Below are positions 9,552-37,599 of a DNA stretch of 37,599 bases, piece by piece. How positions within the stretch are numbered: the stretch's first letter is position 1; every line of letters begins with the position of its first letter. Source of the DNA: Alphaproteobacteria bacterium (GTDB lineage Bacteria > Pseudomonadota > Alphaproteobacteria > Caulobacterales > Parvularculaceae); NCBI GenBank assembly GCA_016125425.1, contig WGLT01000030.1, positions 1-37,599 of the forward strand, read 5' to 3'. The notes below the pieces were generated by a model. The model ran no database searches and was not told the origin of the DNA. It worked only from the letters and a program-made list of their open reading frames with translations. A program made the translations under genes and the position numbers.

Positions 9552-9818
9552 CTAGCCTCCGGCGATGACAGGCAGAACCTGGTCGTGGAACAGAGAAAGA
9601 AGAAGCCGCGAAGCGAATCCCGAACACAGCAGGAAGGCGAGCAGAATGGCGACGAGCTTCGGCACGAAGGTGAGCGTCATTTCCTGAATCGAAGTCAGCG
9701 CCTGAAACAGGCCGATCACGACGCCGACGACGAGCGCGGTCAGCAGCATCGGCGAGGCGATCCAGACGCCCGCCCACAGAAAACTGCGCAAAATACCGAG
9801 GAGCTCCGTCTCGCCCAC
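9552..9818 (-). CDS. fliQ: Flagellar export gate protein FliQ
   Basis: The 88-residue protein has two membrane helices and the family segment VGLFQALTSIQEMTLTFVPK. FliQ packs around FliP in the export gate. The start is GTG with a G-rich Shine-Dalgarno (GGGAGGGCGGGG) upstream. It lies 18 bases after fliE and 47 bases before flhA. Confidence 0.95.
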   Translation of the reverse strand: MGETELLGILRSFLWAGVWIASPMLLTALVVGVVIGLFQALTSIQEMTLTFVPKLVAILLAFLLCSGFASRLLLSLFHDQVLPVIAGG

Positions 9819-9836
9819 GCCCCGCCCTCCCCAGCC

Positions 9837-10157
9837 CTAGACCGGCATCCGCATCAATTCCTGATAGGCCTCGACGACCTTATCGCGCACGGTCACCGCC
9901 GTTTCGACCGCGAGCTCGGCGGAGGCGAGCGCCTCCACCACGGAATGCGGGTCGGCCTTGCCGACCATAAATTCGGATGCGGTCTGCTCGCTCTTGGCGA
10001 CCGTATGCGCAAGATCGTCGACGACTTTGGCCGGATTGAATTGCGCCGACGGATTGTCGCCGGCCGGCGAGCCCATTTGCTTTTTCGGGGCGTCGGGCTT
10101 GAGCGCCTTGAGGGCGGCGCCATAAGTCCTAGCTGCGCTGAATGCGTTAATGTCCAT
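9837..10157 (-). CDS. fliE: Flagellar hook-basal body junction protein FliE
   Basis: FliE connects the MS ring and export gate to the proximal rod. The 106-residue protein ends in the conserved C-terminal helix segment around AVTVRDKVVEAYQELMRMPV. The N-terminal half is variable, as usual. It sits between flgC (11 bases upstream) and fliQ, a standard flgB-flgC-fliE order. Confidence 0.95.
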   Translation of the reverse strand: MDINAFSAARTYGAALKALKPDAPKKQMGSPAGDNPSAQFNPAKVVDDLAHTVAKSEQTASEFMVGKADPHSVVEALASAELAVETAVTVRDKVVEAYQELMRMPV

Positions 10158-10168
10158 CGCGCTTCACC

Positions 10169-10561
10169 TCAGTGTTTCAAGAGATCGAGCAGGCTCGAAT
10201 ACATCTGGCGGGCTTGCTGGAACGTTTGAAGGTTCGCCTCGTAGGATTGGTTCGCTTCGCGCGCGTCCGCCATTTCCGTAACCAGATTGACGTTTGACAT
10301 CTGCACATATCCGGAGTTGTCAGCCATCGGATTCGCAGGATCGAATTTCTGCTCCATGGGAGCCTTGCTCAGCGTGATGCGCCCGATTTCGACTTTGTCG
10401 ACGCCCGCCGCCCGATCGTACACATTCTCGAAATTCAGCAGCTTGCGGCGATAGCCGGGCGTATCGGCGTTCGAGACGTTTTCGCTGACAACGCGCATTC
10501 GGAAGCCTTGCGCGGTCATCCCGCTCGCGGCGGCGCTCATTGCTTTGAGAAAAGCGTTCAT
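10169..10561 (-). CDS. flgC: Flagellar proximal rod protein FlgC
   Basis: The 130-residue rod protein has the rod/hook N-terminal signature VSENVSNADTPGYRRK and a C-terminal helix ending SSLLDLLKH, the two halves that form the coiled coil of axial proteins. A GGGAG site lies before its ATG. It follows flgB by 11 bases in the operon. Confidence 0.97.
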   Translation of the reverse strand: MNAFLKAMSAAASGMTAQGFRMRVVSENVSNADTPGYRRKLLNFENVYDRAAGVDKVEIGRITLSKAPMEQKFDPANPMADNSGYVQMSNVNLVTEMADAREANQSYEANLQTFQQARQMYSSLLDLLKH

Positions 10562-10572
10562 CTTGATGCTCC

Positions 10573-10944
10573 CTAAGCCTTGCCGAGCGTCAAGCGCAGA
10601 ATGTCGAGCGACTTTTTGTAAATCGCTGTCGCAGCGTCATGGTCCTGCTGGGCCTCGACCGATTTGATCATCTGGTCTTCGAGGGAGACCGAATTGCCAT
10701 TGGGCGACATCGCCCCGGGCGAAGCTTGGGCGATGACGCGCCAGGTCGCGTCCTTGGCGGCGGCGACCGTCGAGCCGTCCTCGTCGAGGGCGCGCTGAAA
10801 GGCCGCCGCGAAAGGTTCAAGGTCTTTGGCCTTGTAGCCCGGCGTATCGGCGTTCGCGATATTCTCCGCGAGGACTTCGTGGCGCGCCGCTGCGTGACGC
10901 GCCATCGCGGAAGCGAGATTCAAAAGTTTCAAATCCGAGAACAT
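10573..10944 (-). CDS. flgB: Flagellar proximal rod protein FlgB
   Basis: The 123-residue proximal rod subunit has the signature LAENIANADTPGYKAKDL near the N-terminus and a C-terminal helix (KSLDILRLTLGKA). It is the first gene of the eight-gene minus-strand operon flgB-flgC-fliE-fliQ-flhA-fliR-flhB-fliJ. The 77 bases between it and the divergent fliI must hold both promoters. Confidence 0.96.
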   Translation of the reverse strand: MFSDLKLLNLASAMARHAAARHEVLAENIANADTPGYKAKDLEPFAAAFQRALDEDGSTVAAAKDATWRVIAQASPGAMSPNGNSVSLEDQMIKSVEAQQDHDAATAIYKKSLDILRLTLGKA

Positions 10945-11021
10945 CTTCTGACGTCCTGTTAAGGATTACGAATTATGAACGTAGAGACGAAAATTGAATT
11001 TAGGCTTAATGGATCGGGACC
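10945..11021. promoter_or_regulatory. Divergent promoter region of flgB operon and fliI
   Basis: These 77 bases separate two divergent start codons and are richer in A/T than their surroundings. They include CATAAT-like and TAAATT-like hexamers on the minus strand. No convincing sigma-54 pattern (TGGC-N7-TTGC) is present, and I cannot assign a sigma factor. The region is called from gene layout. Confidence 0.5.
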
Positions 11022-12323
11022 GTGACAGCGCGCCTTCAGGACATTGCGAGAGGAGTCGCTTCCGGCTTTAGGGCTGAAAGACCCTGGGGGCGCGTCGCAT
11101 CGATCGACGGCGGCGTCGTTCGGATCGGCGGACTGGCGGGCTTAGCGCGCATCGGCGACGCGATCGAGATCGACGAGGCCCCCGCCGGCGAGGTTATCGC
11201 GGTCGACGGCGCCTACGCCATCGCCCTGCCTTTTTCTTCCTTGCGCGGACTGATTGTCGGCGCGAAAGCTTATATCGTCCCCGAAGAGGGAGCGCGCCCC
11301 TCACGCGCGTGGCTCGGGCGCGTGCTCACCGCGTTCGGCAAGAGCTTTGACGGGACGCCTGCGCCGACCGGGGAAAACGTCATGCCTTTGACGCCGCCGC
11401 CCCTGCCGGTCGTCGCGCGGCGCGGGCTTGGCCCGCGCATGTCGACCGGGCTCGCGGCGTTCGACACTTTCCTGCCCCTCTGCCGGGGACAGCGCATCGG
11501 CCTGTTCGCCGGCTCGGGAGTCGGCAAGTCGACGCTGATCGCCGATCTCGCCAAAGGCGTCGACGCGGATGTCGTCGTGCTTGCGCTTATCGGAGAGCGC
11601 TCGCGGGAGGTCCGGGAGTTCGTCGAAGAAACGCTCGGTCCGGACGGGCGCGCGCGCTCCGTCGTGATCGTATCGACTTGCGACGATCCGGCGCCGGTAA
11701 AGCGGCGTGCGGCGTTTCTCGCCATGACAACGGCCGAATATTTCCGCGACCTCGGCCTGAACGTGCTCCTGTTGTTCGATTCCATCACGCGCTTCGCCGA
11801 CGCACATCGCGAAATCGGCCTCGCAGCGGGCGAAACGCCGTCGCTGAGAGCCTATCCGCCCTCGACGACGCGGATGATCGCCGCGCTCGCCGAGCGCGCG
11901 GGGCCAGGCGCGGGTGACGCCGGCGACATCACGGCGATTTTTTCCGTGCTCGTCGCGGGCTCCGATATGGAAGAGCCGGTCGCCGACATGGTGCGCGGCA
12001 TTCTCGACGGCCATGTCGTGCTTGAGCGAAGCATCGCCGAACGCGGACGTTTTCCCGCCATCGACATCCGCCGCTCGGTCTCGCGCTGCCTTCCGAAAGC
12101 AGCGTCCGCCGAAGAAAACGCCCTGCTCGCTGAAGGCCGCGCGCTGATCGCGGCCTATGAAGAAGCCTCGACCATGATTCAGACGGGACTTTATGCGAGG
12201 GGAAGCGATCCTGCGATTGACCGCGCGATTGCGGTCTGGCCGCAGCTCGATGCGTTCACCGGCGAGAAATCGCCGAGCTGCGCCGACAGTTTCGCCCGAT
12301 TGAAAGAAATCCTGGCGAGCTGA
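11022..12323 (+). CDS. fliI: Flagellum-specific ATPase FliI
   Basis: FliI is the hexameric ATPase of the flagellar export apparatus, related to F1 beta. The 433-residue protein has Walker A GSGVGKST (164-171), the GERSREV motif (191-197) and a Walker B ending LLLFDSITR. The downstream stretch AYPPSTTRMIAALAERAG is also typical. The start is GTG 11022. It stands apart from the fliH operon, its partner being at 28304. It converges on the DUF1217 gene with 17 bases between them and no terminator. Confidence 0.97.
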   Translation: MTARLQDIARGVASGFRAERPWGRVASIDGGVVRIGGLAGLARIGDAIEIDEAPAGEVIAVDGAYAIALPFSSLRGLIVGAKAYIVPEEGARPSRAWLGRVLTAFGKSFDGTPAPTGENVMPLTPPPLPVVARRGLGPRMSTGLAAFDTFLPLCRGQRIGLFAGSGVGKSTLIADLAKGVDADVVVLALIGERSREVREFVEETLGPDGRARSVVIVSTCDDPAPVKRRAAFLAMTTAEYFRDLGLNVLLLFDSITRFADAHREIGLAAGETPSLRAYPPSTTRMIAALAERAGPGAGDAGDITAIFSVLVAGSDMEEPVADMVRGILDGHVVLERSIAERGRFPAIDIRRSVSRCLPKAASAEENALLAEGRALIAAYEEASTMIQTGLYARGSDPAIDRAIAVWPQLDAFTGEKSPSCADSFARLKEILAS

Positions 12324-12340
12324 CAGGCGCTTGACCGATG

Positions 12341-13186
12341 TCAGGCTTGCGACAGAAGAAGATTCGTCGTCGCGTCGCTGCCAAGATCGCCGCCGAGCAA
12401 GGTTACGGCCGCCGCGCCCGGCGTTGAGAGAGTCGGGCCGTTCTGCATCTGGCGCATCAGGAAGAACCGGCGAATGACGTCTTCGACCTTGGACGAATCC
12501 GTGAAAATCGCCGGCGATTTGCTGCCGAAAATCTGATCGGCCTTCTGCTCGAAAATCTGTTTTTGCTTGTCGATATCGAGCTGCGCCACGCTGCTGGGCA
12601 GACCGAGCGCCGTGGAGACGAGCTCGCGCAGCGGGGCCTGACCCATGATCTGGAACCAGCCGATCGAATCGACTTTGGAGCCAGAGGCGATATCGCCGAT
12701 CTGCCGCTTGAAGTTCATGGCCAGACGCATGTCATTGTCGACATCGCCCACGGCGCGCTCAAATTCGAGCGCCTTATATTTTGCGACGATATTGTCCTGA
12801 AAAACCGGTCGTCCGACATTGAACGCGCCGAGACCGTCGCCGTAACCGAAAGCTTTCGCCAGCGCCTGATAGCGCGGCTCGTTCATCCGATTGACGAATG
12901 ACGACGGATCATAGGTTTTGGATTCAAGCGCCTTTTTAATGAAAGCCTTTTTGTTGATTTCGTCGTCGAGACCGAAGGCCCCGAGCGCGACCGAAAGCAG
13001 CCGGCGATCGCTGACCAAGGCCTCAGGCGTCGTCGCCTTGCCGATATTATAGTAGAAATACTGGATGTCGCTCTGGAGCGACGGCGACTTTTCAAAGGTC
13101 GCCTGCTGGCGCGCGGCTGTGTTTTCCAGAATTTTCCAGCCGCCATAGCCGCTGATCGGGACGGCGGGCTGGAAAACGCCGCTCAC
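12341..13186 (-). CDS. DUF1217-type flagellar protein
   Basis: The 281-residue mostly helical protein fits the DUF1217 family found in alphaproteobacterial flagellar clusters. Typical stretches are FYYNIGKATTPEALVSDRRL and FGLDDEINKKAF. Its molecular role is not settled, and association with the basal body or motor has been suggested. It overlaps the flbT stop by four bases, so it belongs to the fla-flaF-flbT unit or at least to flaF-flbT. Confidence 0.8.
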   Translation of the reverse strand: MSGVFQPAVPISGYGGWKILENTAARQQATFEKSPSLQSDIQYFYYNIGKATTPEALVSDRRLLSVALGAFGLDDEINKKAFIKKALESKTYDPSSFVNRMNEPRYQALAKAFGYGDGLGAFNVGRPVFQDNIVAKYKALEFERAVGDVDNDMRLAMNFKRQIGDIASGSKVDSIGWFQIMGQAPLRELVSTALGLPSSVAQLDIDKQKQIFEQKADQIFGSKSPAIFTDSSKVEDVIRRFFLMRQMQNGPTLSTPGAAAVTLLGGDLGSDATTNLLLSQA

Positions 13187-13611
13187 TGCCGCACAGCGCC
13201 GGCCCGGGCATTTGCGGCCGCGAGCAGCGCCTCCTCTTGCGGAATGACGCGCGAAAGCTGGCGCATTACATTGTAAAATTTCCCCGCTCGCGCATCCTGC
13301 ACCGCCTGATCAAGCTCGGCTCGGCACAGTTTCTCACCGAACGCCTCGCGCAGCGCGTCAAGCGCGGGAAGGATTTCCGCTTTCGCCTGTTCAGCGTCCG
13401 CCTCGCCGGTGACGACGAGCTGGGCGGCGTAATAAAGGCGTTTGGCCGGGGTCGTCGCCTCATCGGGATGCAAGGCGTCGCGAATGCGCAAGATATGCGC
13501 GTCTTGCGTTTTGACGCGAAGGCGCACCCGGCGATCGCCATTCTCAATCACGACGCCGTTAACGAGAAACTTCTCGTGCGGCCGCAGCCGGAGAACGAGT
13601 CCGCCAGTCAT
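13183..13611 (-). CDS. flbT: Flagellin mRNA regulator FlbT
   Basis: FlbT binds the 5' untranslated region of flagellin mRNA in Caulobacter and controls its translation or decay. In other alphaproteobacteria it can be an activator. The 142-residue protein opens with the family-typical LRLRPHEKFLVNGVVIENGD and has the helical C-half FYNVMRQLSRVIPQEE. ATG 13611 overlaps the flaF stop (ATGA). A longer frame from 13662 would read through flaF sequence and is rejected. It is flanked by flaF and the DUF1217 gene. Confidence 0.93.
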   Translation of the reverse strand: MTGGLVLRLRPHEKFLVNGVVIENGDRRVRLRVKTQDAHILRIRDALHPDEATTPAKRLYYAAQLVVTGEADAEQAKAEILPALDALREAFGEKLCRAELDQAVQDARAGKFYNVMRQLSRVIPQEEALLAAANARAGAVRQ

Positions 13612-13994
13612 TGACCCGCCTCCTGCTGCGTCGCATTTCCCCTCAGCCCCCGCATCACGCAAGTGTTTATGTCGATCAGAGCATCCAGCGGCGCATCGCC
13701 CGCGAGCGCCTTTGCGCTATGCGCGCGCGTGAATTCGGAAAGATAAAACAGCTTGGAGCGCAATTCGGCGGGCAGCTTGTTGTCTTCGCTTGCGACGTCG
13801 AGCGCGATTGCGGTCCAGAGCCTTAGATTGTCATGAATGGCTTCGGCGATTTTCGCAAATGGCGCCGATGTGTCTTTCGCCGCGGCGAGCTTGCCGGTGA
13901 CGCGCGCGAAAATCTGGTATTCCGCGCTGCGCGGCGTGGAGACCGATTGAACTGATTGGCGATAGCCGCCTTCTGCGAGCGCGCCTTCGTACAT
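13608..13994 (-). CDS. flaF: Flagellin assembly regulator FlaF
   Basis: FlaF is the alphaproteobacterial partner of FlbT and acts as a flagellin-binding secretion chaperone or positive regulator. The 128-residue protein has the family segments around LWTAIALDVASEDNKLP and LRSKLFYLSEFTRAHS. AGAGG lies upstream of its ATG. It starts 68 bases after the flagellin stop, beyond a strong terminator, so it needs read-through or its own promoter. Confidence 0.93.
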   Translation of the reverse strand: MYEGALAEGGYRQSVQSVSTPRSAEYQIFARVTGKLAAAKDTSAPFAKIAEAIHDNLRLWTAIALDVASEDNKLPAELRSKLFYLSEFTRAHSAKALAGDAPLDALIDINTCVMRGLRGNATQQEAGQ

Positions 13995-33501: not shown

Positions 33502-33586
33502 GCCCAGATGGCGGAATTGGTAGACGCGCAGGTTTCAGGTACCTGTGCCGCAAGGCGTGGAGGTTCGAGTCCTCTTCTGGGCACCA
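33502..33586 (+). tRNA. tRNA-Leu (anticodon CAG)
   Basis: This is an 85-base class II tRNA including encoded CCA. The acceptor stem GCCCAGA pairs with TCTGGGC. The anticodon arm CAGGT-TTCAGGT-ACCTG shows anticodon CAG (reads CUG). The T arm has GGTTCGAGTCC. The long variable arm is typical of Leu. An integrase gene starts 236 bases downstream, so the 3' end is the probable insertion site of the island. Confidence 0.97.
33562..33586 (+). repeat. Probable attachment core (attL) at the tRNA 3' end, with a decayed copy at 33756-33780
   Basis: P4-type integrases recombine at tRNA 3' ends, so the last bases of this tRNA are the likely core. Bases 33756-33780 match it in about 19 of 25 positions, including GAGTCC, TCT, GGC and the final CA. 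They may be a decayed second copy from an earlier insertion or chance. No intact second copy is visible to the right, so the far end of the island lies outside the window. Confidence 0.5.
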
Positions 33587-33686
33587 CTTGCCGGCCGCTT
33601 GCGTCCAGGCGCATCTAAAAATACCCTAAAAACATGGAGTTGAGCGATAGCCCGTACAGGGCTGTGCTCACACATCCATGAGCATG

Positions 33687-33701
33687 CCAACAAAATGTTG
33701 G
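33687..33701. promoter_or_regulatory. Inverted repeat before the integrase
   Basis: CCAACA-AAA-TGTTGG is a perfect 6-bp inverted repeat. A related GCCAACAAATG recurs at 33738-33748. Paired sites between an attachment core and int are good candidates for integrase or excisionase arm binding, or an int operator. The rest of 33587-33821 holds no gene. Confidence 0.35.
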
Positions 33702-33821
33702 TAGGTTTTGTGGCATTTTTCGGGGGTCCGACAGGGCGCCAACAAATGACACTCGGGTTTGAGTCCGCGTCTCGGCGTCAAATCCGAAAGCCTGATGTTG
33801 GGACGAATTGCAGGTGTTGGT

Positions 33822-35015
33822 ATGTCGCTTTCCCAAATGGCCGTTCACAACGCCAAACCTCGCGAGAAGGACTACAAGCTCAGTGACGGCCAAGGCATGT
33901 TCCTGCTCGTCACGAAGAAAGGAGGGCGTTATTGGCGCTGGAGCTATCGCTTCGGCGGCAAACAGAAGACGCTCTCCTTGGGCGTCTATCCCGAAGTCTC
34001 GCTCGCGGAAGCCCGTGAAAAGCGCGCAGCGGCTCGGGCGATTCTGGCTGAAGGTCACGATCCCGCCCTTGACCGCAAGATCAAAAAACTCACTGCAGGC
34101 GAAGTTCCCGGAAACACCTTCACCGCGCTTGCCAAAGAGCTGCTCTTGAAAATGGAGCGTGAGGGACGCGCCCAGGTCACAATCGACAAGACGAGATGGA
34201 TGCTCGATTTCGCATTCCCCTATTTGGGCGAGAGACCCGTCAACGAAATCACGCCGCAAGAAGTGCTAACCGTCCTGCGCTTGGTCGAATCGCGCGGCCG
34301 GTATGAAACGGCTCGCCGTCTCAGAAGCAAATGCAGTCAGATTTTCCGCTTGGCGATCGCGACTGGAAGGGCCGAACGCGATCCGACCGCTGACCTTCGC
34401 GGCGCAATCGCGGCGCCCAAGGTCACGCACAGAGCTGCAATCACCGACCCTAAGGAAGTTGGCGGCTTACTGCGCTCTATTGACGGTTTCACCGGACATA
34501 AAACGACGCGCGTCGCGCTCAACCTGTCAGCCCTCACCTTCGTCCGTCCCGGCGAAATCCGCCATGCAGAATGGACTGAATTTGATCTCGATGCGGCGGT
34601 TTGGACGATCCCGGCCGAAAAGATGAAGATGCGCCGTCCCCACAGGGTTCCTTTGGCGCGCCAGACCCTCGCTCTGCTTGGCGATCTCCAGCCCCTCACC
34701 GGAAAGAGCCGCTATCTCTTCCCCGCCGTTCATAGCTGGGTGCGGCCCATGTCTGAAAATACGCTCAATTCAGCGCTGAGACGGCTGGGTTATTCGAAGG
34801 AAGAAATGACCGCTCACGGTTTCCGGGCCATGGCCGCGACTTTGTTAAACGAGATGGGAAAATGGCCCGGCGATGCTATCGAGCGGCAGCTCGCCCACCA
34901 GGAGGCGAACGCCGTCCGTCGCGCCTATACGCATGCGGCTGAGTACTGGAACGACAGAGTGGACATGATGCAGGCCTGGGCGGACTATCTGGACCAGTTG
35001 CGCGAGACTGTGTGA
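33822..35015 (+). CDS. int: P4-type tyrosine site-specific integrase
   Basis: The 397-residue recombinase catalyses insertion and excision of the island at tRNA-Leu. It has the N-terminal arm-binding domain of the DUF4102 type (AKPREKDYKLSDGQGMFLLV) and a core-binding helical domain (about 98-190). The catalytic domain has Arg242 (VRPGEIRHAEW), His332 and Arg335 (AHGFR), His359 (LAHQ) and nucleophile Tyr369 (RRAYTH). All catalytic residues are present, so it is probably active. ATG 33822 gives the family-typical N-terminus (SQMAVHNAKPRE), while an upstream TTG at 33759 would add atypical residues. Confidence 0.94.
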   Translation: MSLSQMAVHNAKPREKDYKLSDGQGMFLLVTKKGGRYWRWSYRFGGKQKTLSLGVYPEVSLAEAREKRAAARAILAEGHDPALDRKIKKLTAGEVPGNTFTALAKELLLKMEREGRAQVTIDKTRWMLDFAFPYLGERPVNEITPQEVLTVLRLVESRGRYETARRLRSKCSQIFRLAIATGRAERDPTADLRGAIAAPKVTHRAAITDPKEVGGLLRSIDGFTGHKTTRVALNLSALTFVRPGEIRHAEWTEFDLDAAVWTIPAEKMKMRRPHRVPLARQTLALLGDLQPLTGKSRYLFPAVHSWVRPMSENTLNSALRRLGYSKEEMTAHGFRAMAATLLNEMGKWPGDAIERQLAHQEANAVRRAYTHAAEYWNDRVDMMQAWADYLDQLRETV

Positions 35016-35057
35016 GCACTCTTGCGAGACACCCGGACAGACACTCTCAACACACAC

Positions 35058-35077
35058 TGCGGGGCATACTCCCCGCA
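35058..35077 (+). terminator. Hairpin after the integrase gene
   Basis: TGCGGGG (35058-35064) and CCCCGCA (35071-35077) form a perfect 7-bp stem with a 6-base loop, 43 bases after the int stop. No T-run follows, so it may be a weak terminator, an RNA-stability element or a leader structure for the next gene. Confidence 0.4.
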
Positions 35078-35097
35078 CAATAAACCAGAGAGCAGCA

Positions 35098-35937
35098 TTG
35101 AGAGGACCGTCACGCTCCGCCAATCGACCGACGCGCCGTAAGCCACGAGCGCGAAAGCTGCAAGTGCTGGCGGTTCGTCAACCGTCCGACGAACCGATTG
35201 AGGAGACGGCGCTGGACGACGACCCGCTCCACATCACTGACGTGGAGATGAAAGAATGGCTCCGCGATCTTGTGGGCGCTTTGCCACCGGAATCCGGCTC
35301 TTCTCCCGAGAACGCCGCGCGCGAAGCCGCGTATGGCTTGCGCCTGTTATCATTGCTTCAGAATCCATCGGTTCTCAAGGATGACGAACCTGCGAGAATT
35401 GGTCTTGCAATCGCCTATGGCTCCTTGGCGGAAGAGCTCTTCCGGTTGGCCAATCGAAAGAAAAGCAATCCCATCTATGCGATGGAAGCATTTATCCTCT
35501 TTCGGGATGCCGGTCTCTACCCGCCGCGCTGGGTCCTAGATTGGCTGCACGATGCGTTCGCGAGCTATCTCGGTTCAAACGGCGAAAAGGACATTAGCAC
35601 GCTGCTTGGCGTCAAGCGCGGGCGCGGCAGCACAGATGTTATCAAGGAAGCTCAAGCCCTCCGGACCGAGGGGCCTATTCTCTTTGAGATGATTCTCTTA
35701 AACGCCGTAGGGATTTCGGCGGACGATGCCGCGGCGATGATTGTCGCGCGTTGCAAGGCCGAAGGAACCGAAGTTCTCGCCGAAGAGACGCTTGTGGATC
35801 GCTTCACGAGCCGCCGCGCCAGCGAGCACGCAAAGGCTATCAAGTCTCTGCTTGGCTTGGATATCGATCGCGACGCCTTATGGGAGCAGTTGAAGACAAT
35901 CTATCCGTCGCACTCGCTTCCTTCGCGCCGGAAATAG
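35098..35937 (+). CDS. Unknown island protein, 279 residues
   Basis: I do not recognise this protein. The N-terminal 30 residues are strongly basic (RPTRRKPRARK), followed by an acidic stretch and a mainly helical body. The body has the notable segments YPPRWVLDWLHDAF, LGVKRGRGSTD and ISADDAAAMIVARCKAEG. No membrane helix or catalytic motif is evident. A basic tail plus a helical body in an int-to-alpA interval suggests nucleic-acid binding or regulation, by inference only. TTG 35098 has only AGAGAG upstream. ATG 35248 would remove the basic tail, so the start is uncertain. Terminator-like hairpins lie on both sides. Confidence 0.6.
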   Translation: MRGPSRSANRPTRRKPRARKLQVLAVRQPSDEPIEETALDDDPLHITDVEMKEWLRDLVGALPPESGSSPENAAREAAYGLRLLSLLQNPSVLKDDEPARIGLAIAYGSLAEELFRLANRKKSNPIYAMEAFILFRDAGLYPPRWVLDWLHDAFASYLGSNGEKDISTLLGVKRGRGSTDVIKEAQALRTEGPILFEMILLNAVGISADDAAAMIVARCKAEGTEVLAEETLVDRFTSRRASEHAKAIKSLLGLDIDRDALWEQLKTIYPSHSLPSRRK

Positions 35938-35953
35938 GCCGTCCCGCGACTCC

Positions 35954-35988
35954 GTGCGAAATCGCCGATTTCGCACCCTGGCGTTTTT
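35954..35988 (+). terminator. Terminator-like perfect inverted repeat
   Basis: GTGCGAAATC (35954-35963) and GATTTCGCAC (35967-35976) form a 10-bp stem with a 3-base loop. TTTTT follows seven bases later, and the unit lies 16 bases after the upstream stop. The gap before the T-run is longer than ideal, so an operator role for the following regulator gene is also possible. Confidence 0.6.
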
Positions 35989-36005
35989 GAGCCGTCCAGC
36001 CTGCT

Positions 36006-36039
36006 CTCTCTCCATGCACCTGTACCCGAATGGAGAGAG
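36006..36039 (+). promoter_or_regulatory. Hairpin that can hide the alpA ribosome-binding site
   Basis: CTCTCTCCAT (36006-36015) is the exact complement of ATGGAGAGAG (36030-36039), with a 14-base loop. The right arm contains the GGAGAG Shine-Dalgarno of the gene starting at 36045. Folding would block translation. Opening by protein, RNA or temperature would allow it. Confidence 0.55.
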
Positions 36040-36044
36040 CCATC

Positions 36045-36230
36045 ATGTCTGACATCCAAGCCTATCGTGTCCTCGACTTCTGCAAGGCTCACGGCGTATC
36101 GCGAAGCTTCGCCTATCTCGAAATGAAGGCCGGTCGCCTCAAATTCTTCAATGTCGGCCGAATGCGCCTCATCTCGCGCGAAGCAGCAGAGGAATGGCGC
36201 AAAAGCTATGAATCGGCGCGAAGCGCGTGA
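36045..36230 (+). CDS. AlpA/excisionase-like helix-turn-helix regulator
   Basis: This 61-residue protein has a short winged-helix DNA-binding fold. It opens with VLDFCKAHGVSRSFAYLEMK (turn and recognition helix), then the wing-like RLKFFNVGRMRLISREAAEEW. It matches the AlpA/MerR-like excisionase group that controls int expression and directs excision in P4-like elements. ATG 36045 is chosen because GGAGAG (36032-36037) is seven bases upstream. ATG 36030 lies in front of that site and has none of its own. The 11-bp periodic array begins ten bases after its stop and could be its binding region. Confidence 0.82.
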   Translation: MSDIQAYRVLDFCKAHGVSRSFAYLEMKAGRLKFFNVGRMRLISREAAEEWRKSYESARSA

Positions 36231-36240
36231 GACCATAACC

Positions 36241-36487
36241 CAATGACTCTCCAATGCGCCATCAATGCGTTCGCAATTGATGGCTGACTATGTCGCCGGA
36301 GCATTGCCGGGCTGTTCCGGATGGTTGCCGAGATACCCGCCGATATGAGGGTTTATATGGCGGCAACATGGAACGTATATGGCAGCGATATGGATGCAGT
36401 ATGGACACCGGACACACCTCGGACACTTGGCAGGACACGGCACGGACGAGGCTAGGACACGGCTACAACACTACGCGGACGCTTTTC
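36241..36487. repeat. Array of about 22 degenerate units with 11-bp period
   Basis: Four successive motif blocks recur every 11 bases, with rare 10 or 12. CAATG/CAATT starts at 36241, 36252, 36263 and 36274. CCGGA/CCGGG/CCGAG/CCGAT starts at 36296, 36307, 36317, 36328 and 36340. ATATGG-like units start at 36355, 36366, 36377, 36388 and 36399. GGACAC-like units start at 36410, 36421, 36433, 36444, 36455, 36466 and 36477. Each unit has five to six conserved and five to six variable bases. The weak 87-codon frame across it is a by-product, since 11 is not a multiple of three. One helical turn per unit puts all motifs on one DNA face, which suggests an iteron-like protein-binding array. Confidence 0.8.
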
Positions 36488-36708
36488 GCGGAGTGCATGA
36501 ATAGTTTGAGCCCGCCATTACTGCATGATTGGACGCGCTTGGACGGAATTTGAAGACCCGCGTGAAGAACGAACGAAGGGCGATTGAAGAAAAATCGAAG
36601 GAATCCCCGAACAAATCCCGCAGAGTGTGAGGGCTTCCGTTTAGGCGAGCTATTTCACAACATCATGGAATGGTGTTGGCGGCATAAACCGAGGCGGTAG
36701 GCTACTCC
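36488..36708. other. Non-coding stretch between 11-bp array and CRISPR array
   Basis: I see no credible gene here. GGACG at 36531 and 36541 may be the fading end of the 11-bp array. GCATAAACCGAGGCGG (36682-36697) resembles the first part of the degenerate CRISPR repeat that begins 27 bases later, and may be a decayed trailer copy. Confidence 0.5.
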
Positions 36709-37113
36709 GCATAAATGAGGCCGGGGCGATCAGGCCCCGGAATAAGATGATCACGCGATCCTTATGAAAGTGCGCGACGTTGTGCTTCAATGAGGCCGGG
36801 GCGATCAGGCCCCGGAATAAGATATGGGACGCGCTGGTCGAGCAATACGCTGAAGAGCTTCAATGAGGCCGGGGCGATCAGGCCCCGGAATAACTTATAC
36901 GCATCAGCCGCGTCGAGAACAGACTTGACAGCTTCAATGAGGCCGGGGCGATCAGGCCCCGGAATAACTCGCTGCGCCCCGGCGGGCCGGTAGCGAACCC
37001 CCGCTTCAATGAGGCCGGGGCGATCAGGCCCCGGAATAAGCGCGTGCCTGCGTGGCTGGCGCATCATGGCGTCTCCGCTTCAATGAGGCCGGGGCGATCA
37101 GGCCCCGGAATAA
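36709..37113 (-). CRISPR. CRISPR array, six 37-bp repeats, five complete spacers
   Basis: The repeats start at 36709, 36784, 36857, 36931, 37003 and 37077. Spacers are 38, 36, 37, 35 and 37 bases and share no sequence. On the plus strand each repeat starts GCTTCAATGAGG and ends GGAATAA. It contains CCGGGGC-GATCAG-GCCCCGG, a 7-bp all-GC stem with a 6-base loop. Read on the minus strand it ends CATTGAAGC, like the usual ATTGAAA(C/G) 3' handle, so transcription is probably right to left. The only variant repeat is 36709 (GCATAA for GCTTCA), the sense 3' end of the last repeat, where decay is expected. No cas gene is present, and subtype is left open. The leader should lie to the right, but phage-like coding sequence lies there instead. 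Confidence 0.95.
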
Positions 37114-37114
37114 C

Positions 37115-37599
37115 GAGCGCAACCGCATCTTCGACTACAAGCCCTATGCGAAGCAGTACGAGTTTCATCGCCTTGGGGTCGACAAGACAGAACGGCTCCT
37201 GACGGCGGGAAACCAGCTCGGCAAGACCCTGTGCGGCGCCCACGAGGCGGCTTTTCACGCCACCGGAATGTACCCGGAATGGTGGCCGGGGCGCGTATGG
37301 CAGCGGCCGACGCGCGGCTGGATAGGCGGGGAATCCTCGACCGTCGTCCGCGACACGACGCAGAAACTCCTTCTCGGAGACGTGACGGAGGGAGAGGACA
37401 GACTCGGCACCGGAATCATCCCGGCCGACCAGATAGTCAACATCGAGTGGTCCCGGGGCGTGGCCCTCGGCGTCGACACCGCTGTCATCAGGAACAAGTC
37501 CGGCGGGAACTCTGTCATCAAGTTCAAGTCCTACGAGATGCAGCGCCAGAAGTGGCAGGGCGATACGATCGACTGGTGCTGGTACGACGAGGAGCCGCC
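37115..37599 (+). CDS. Phage terminase large subunit, N-terminally truncated, runs off the window
   Basis: The terminase ATPase-nuclease packages phage DNA into capsids. About 161 codons are visible. They include the adenine-side stretch YKPYAKQYEFHRLG, Walker A in AGNQLGKT (about residues 31-38), conserved Trp-rich GMYPEWWPGRVW, FKSYEMQRQKWQG and the Walker B region DWCWYDEEPP at the edge. The nuclease half lies beyond the window. No start codon exists after the CRISPR repeat, and the frame is open through the repeat back to 37040 without a site. The first 20 or so residues of a normal terminase are replaced by the repeat. The sequence therefore begins as a spacer would. Confidence 0.9.

Follow-up and report, generated by a model that had tools for sequence, protein, structure and literature searches.

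CRISPR repeats can give rise to chimeric contigs during assembly, as described in excerpts of a study of arrays in metagenomes (PMC6617893). Type I-G CRISPR-Cas systems (formerly I-U), which carry a Cas4-Cas1 fusion, have a TTN PAM according to extracts of one study and of a review (PMC9638904; PMC11640852), and the I-G PAMs given in the relevant part of another paper include TTN and TTC, as well as TAC, TAN and AAN (PMC8482600). Directional integration in type I-G is a subject of PMC10504553, at least in the portion drawn on here. We describe a contig on which a CRISPR array of this type runs directly into a phage terminase gene, a junction that we regard as ordinary and most likely an artefact rather than a real feature.

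The window, i.e. the whole stretch of DNA analysed, is an entire contig of 37,599 bases (C27), one of 31 contigs in a 2.87-Mb genome with an estimated completeness of 96.9%. Near its right end a type I-G CRISPR array on the minus strand is represented by its trailer, or oldest, part (36709..37113), consisting of six 37-nt repeats and five complete spacers of 35-38 nt (38, 36, 37, 35 and 37 nt in order); the leader side is on a second contig, C26. The first five repeats occupy 36709-36745, 36784-36820, 36857-36893, 36931-36967 and 37003-37039, and the sixth, the final copy on this contig, 37077..37113; no seventh repeat occurs from there to the contig end. Repeat 1 is altered at two positions near its left end (36711 and 36713), and these changes mark this side as the old end of the array. 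On the minus strand, the folded repeat forms a 7-bp hairpin with 4 nt and then an 8-nt handle (ATTGAAGC) behind it, a fold that 11 of 200 shuffled sequences form equally well. Taken together with the position of the leader and cas genes on C26, the fold indicates that the reading direction of the array is from C26 into C27, the latter holding its old end.

Directly behind the sixth repeat, a plus-strand frame (37115..37597) stays open for 161 codons up to the contig end and matches the Terminase_6N profile (PF03237, E = 1e-13). This is the N-terminal ATPase part of a phage terminase large subunit, without its start, which we judge to be foreign to the locus; after 161 codons the contig stops, short of a complete terminase with its nuclease domain. 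The stretches AGNQ.GKT and DEEP, invariant in an alignment of five sequences, are presumably the ATPase motifs. The protein matched 397 phage records, all below 60% identity (41.7-50.0% among the 20 matches listed). When IMG/VR was queried with the single protein, two stretches were returned, with one relative at 48% identity; a query with an alignment gave at least 600 stretches and at least 592 relatives, the best 80 of which were kept (top identity 59% among the matches listed). The GC content of the fragment (63.6%) is close to that of the host (62.9%), which we count against a foreign origin.

Within its own genome, the 486-base sequence after 37113 matched only itself. Nor did the genome yield the rest of the terminase: a 480-residue relative used as a query matched only the fragment on this contig. 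Terminase relatives occurred in one of 100 genomes, namely this one, and in none of the 99 related genomes. A host gene or prophage was also considered and was rejected on this distribution, as well as on a scan of genome contigs that gave 64 pattern stretches with no relatives among them.

In all of the 41 IMG/VR relatives compared (the first 41 of the 80 fetched), the upstream frame, counted from the position of our residue 1, is open for at least 20 codons, with a median of 37. The same frame is open through repeat six too, as part of an ORF from a GTG at 37052, and the translation of repeat six in the terminase frame holds no ATG, GTG or TTG. Since the frame of the relatives extends upstream and the repeat offers no in-frame start codon, the start of our terminase is missing. 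The resemblance to phage terminases drops away at the repeat edge: in an ungapped comparison with the 41 relatives, the BLOSUM62 score per codon averages about +2.7 for the 20 codons that follow the edge and about -0.7 for the 12 that precede it. In local alignments with the 80 best relatives, 28 start at residue 1 and the others at residues 2-8, with a query that began at 37115 and was blind further left. Codon -3 before the edge (Arg) scores high, being identical in 23 of the 41 relatives, and the alignment with the 480-residue relative extends three codons into repeat six; we read both as chance. An earlier note on this DNA had described six repeats ending at 37113, followed by a terminase frame in place of the next spacer and by no seventh repeat, and a gene that loses its N-terminus exactly at the repeat edge; the coordinates, the profile match, the open upstream frames and the loss of similarity at the edge bear out both observations.

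The array itself continues elsewhere. A search of the genome for the repeat gave 15 copies, the six above and nine on C26 (58.9 kb), which are identical to each other, share the orientation of those on C27 and enclose eight complete spacers of 36-41 nt. C26 opens 25 bases inside a further spacer (C26:1-25), which is unlike 37114-37149, so if the latter is spacer six, at least one more repeat is missing between the contigs. The array on C26 is followed by about 220 bases without repeats, on the leader side, and then by cas2, a Cas4-Cas1 fusion, cas3, cas8g, cas7g and cas5-6g. The fusion (L010:1179-2897, minus strand) combines Cas_Cas4 and Cas_Cas1 in one protein and is recognised by PADLOC as Cas1g (E = 6.7e-183). 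PADLOC also identifies the I-G effector proteins Cas8g (Csx17-type, 1.1e-201), Cas7g (GSU0053, 2.7e-41) and Cas56g (a Csb2-type Cas5-Cas6 fusion, 3.7e-134), as well as Cas3g (9.5e-263), whose Cas3_HD domain lies at residues 657-855 of 862. This gene set fits a type I-G CRISPR-Cas system. Two of the C26 spacers (C26:137-173 and 360-395) are nearly identical, with differences that fit related codons and a possible reading as [IV]SKA[GR]GKVATF[QE], as if they had been acquired from one gene of two related phages.

The spacer lengths bear on one explanation of the junction, namely that the terminase sequence is an oversized spacer taken from a very long phage fragment, or part of a prophage within the array. 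The frame is indeed open to the end of the contig, as either would allow, but all 13 complete spacers on the two contigs measure 35-41 nt, the start of the terminase is missing, which would not be so in an intact prophage gene, and other parts of the terminase were not found in the genome. We give this explanation next to no credence.

The two contigs are further linked by what appears to be an integrated element. Upstream of the array on C27 lies a tRNA-Leu (CAG) gene (33502..33586, plus strand), the probable integration target, and overlapping its 3' end is a 42-bp putative attachment-site copy (33580..33621, plus strand) identical to C26:10813-10854, which adjoins the last cas gene on its far side. 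This direct repeat accounts for all exact 25-mers common to C27 and the whole of C26 outside the array, on both strands; past the 42-bp core, a weaker similarity of the flanks covers 124 nt at 81%. A tyrosine integrase of the presumed CRISPR-Cas-carrying element follows on C27 (33759..35015, plus strand; PF00589 1.4e-19, PF22022 9.2e-31, PF13356 4.7e-26; PHROG integrase 2.8e-67). The open frame between integrase and array (35098-35937, 279 residues) had no match in Pfam, PHROG or PADLOC at the limits used. We read the two 42-bp repeats as both attachment sites of one integrated element that carries the integrase, the array and the cas genes. As two sites of one element, they would place C27 and C26 side by side, joined by the array, and if C27 continues into C26 the phage gene is out of place there.

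Gene order in relatives lends this adjacency thin support. Among seven regions from relatives, one is strongly similar to both contigs, two are weakly similar to C26 and four show no similarity to C26 after a score filter. The first of these, from a genome of the same genus (G004), holds its stretches resembling the two contigs within 20 kb, in a rearranged order. In another genome of the genus (G002:C140, about 9780-13810), 55 copies of a variant repeat with a spacing of about 73 nt adjoin cas2/cas4-1. An empty integration site was also sought by gene order, and in the 30 other genomes nothing matched the C26-side gene at E values up to 1e-40. The rpmA gene is present in 28 of 31 genomes, and tRNA-Leu (CAG) in one of the seven regions near rpmA that were examined. 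The type I-G system, with its full gene set, seems to belong to an integrase element in tRNA-Leu (CAG), which would span about 14.4 kb in addition to the array stretch left unassembled (33502-37113; C26:1-10854).

The sequence at the repeat edge offers a candidate for spacer six. The 36 nt following the last repeat (37114..37149, minus strand) would be both spacer six and a terminase protospacer, and hence the zone of identity in which the contig crosses into the phage; we define it by its length, within the range of the 13 complete spacers, and by the position of a candidate PAM. Directly after these 36 nt stands GAA on the plus strand (37150..37152), that is, TTC on the crRNA strand (minus), which is the expected PAM side for type I given the array orientation, going by the relevant extracts of PMC9638904 and PMC8482600. 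Over offsets of 33-42 nt after 37113, TTN follows at 36 only. The chance of a PAM match at 35-38 nt within the fragment on this contig is 0.096 for TTC/GAA and 0.154 for TTN/NAA, and the further I-G PAMs (TAC, TAN and AAN) raise the odds that one PAM or another will match; a TAC stands at 42 nt, an offset that exceeds the longest spacer observed (41 nt). The TTC at 36 nt therefore gives modest support to an identity between spacer and protospacer. If spacer six is the protospacer, the join at the repeat edge, the missing start and the position of the PAM-like motif are all explained.

A repeat flanks 37114-37149 on one side only, and C26 begins within a different spacer. The matching spacer is thus not directly observed, which leaves some room for a different kind of chimera, one joined at or near the repeat edge by a chimeric read or by a phage-borne copy of the repeat, with no phage-matching spacer involved. 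Short chimeras do arise in sequencing libraries. Such a join, however, would make coincidences of both the loss of phage similarity at the edge and the TTC at 36 nt. A phage-borne repeat would moreover sever the start of the terminase, and an exact search of IMG/VR with a 29-position repeat core, in which two positions were left free, gave no matches. We consider this kind of join unlikely.

Overall, we put the probability at roughly 86% that the end of the contig is an assembly chimera made through spacer six, with phage terminase standing in place of the continuation of the array. On the chromosome, repeat six would be followed by spacer six, by some unassembled repeats and spacers, and then by C26, with its newer spacers, leader and I-G cas genes. 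Spacer six would derive from a phage's terminase gene, the phage presumably being present in the sequenced sample as well, and at about 36 shared bases the assembler would have taken the path into the phage, continuing for about 450 more bases until the contig ends. The continuation that such a chimera calls for exists on C26, where further array repeats, the cas genes and the other copy of the 42-bp repeat are located, although the direct link between the contigs is itself our inference.

The earlier note had proposed that spacer six is identical to a terminase protospacer, that the sequence crosses from array to phage through this identity, and that this reflects a chimera made in assembly or, as the rarer case, real recombination. 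The array and cas genes on C26, the 42-bp repeat, the loss of similarity at the edge and the TTC at 36 nt all speak for the crossing, with the identity itself deduced from them, and the preference for a chimera stands, with the array continuing on C26 and no further piece of the terminase found in the genome. Real recombination would mean that in some cells spacer six has undergone recombination with a whole or partial phage genome, such that the array truly enters phage DNA. An identity of 36 bases could in principle suffice for this, the junction would look alike, and the break between C27 and C26 leaves space for an insert. However, the other pieces of the terminase and a second junction were not seen in the genome, and the insert would presumably bring in a target for the host's spacer six, with its PAM, beside a full I-G gene set, so the cell would have to tolerate that target. 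We regard it as distinctly unlikely, and it is a shade less likely still that the junction exists in a subpopulation of cells as a lysogen-like state, in which a phage recombined via spacer six is anchored in the very immune memory that targets it. An assembly error calls for a phage in the sample, where it was presumably present, and for no biological event.

Neither the source phage nor a protospacer of another spacer turned up in the collections searched. A 28-mer of the candidate protospacer had no exact match in IMG/VR, and the full 36 nt gave three weak matches to annotated phages (E = 0.4), which we judged to be chance. We also scored 15 sequences (five spacers from C27, eight complete and one partial from C26, and the candidate) against 276 kb in eight phage records, with six controls each. 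The best scores were 26 for spacer W1 (controls 22-24) and 25 for W4 (controls 22-24), and the remainder did not exceed their best control. No other spacer was thus clearly above controls against the phage relatives; the candidate was at control level as well, the test being too weak at such divergence. Besides the candidate, three of the 13 spacers were queried against sequence collections, and none gave a protospacer: the exact cores of two C26 spacers had zero matches each in IMG/VR, a codon-degenerate pattern for the similar C26 pair had none, and one spacer had no match to phages at E values up to 0.1.

If the contig end is a chimera, it carries a warning: contigs that end in an array may carry phage genes, which gene callers and prophage finders would assign to the host. 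Used carefully, such a join also points to a phage that probably co-occurred with its host although the host had been immunised against it before, and does so even where that phage is missing from the databases searched. In the present case, the junction hints at one phage that this bacterium has met.

As in the metagenome array chimeras of PMC6617893, so far as its excerpts describe them, an array contig here runs on into DNA that probably does not adjoin it in the genome. The cause given in those excerpts is repetitive sequence, whereas the join on our contig would pass through the identity of a spacer with its protospacer. The gene set on C26 is the same as that of type I-G systems with a Cas4-Cas1 fusion, and C27 adds a PAM candidate of the TTN type. 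The I-G repeat in the pertinent part of PMC9638904 has the same hairpin, 4 nt and 8-nt handle as ours, although it is 36 nt long there and is taken as 37 nt here. What sets the present I-G system apart is that it appears to ride on an integrase element at tRNA-Leu.
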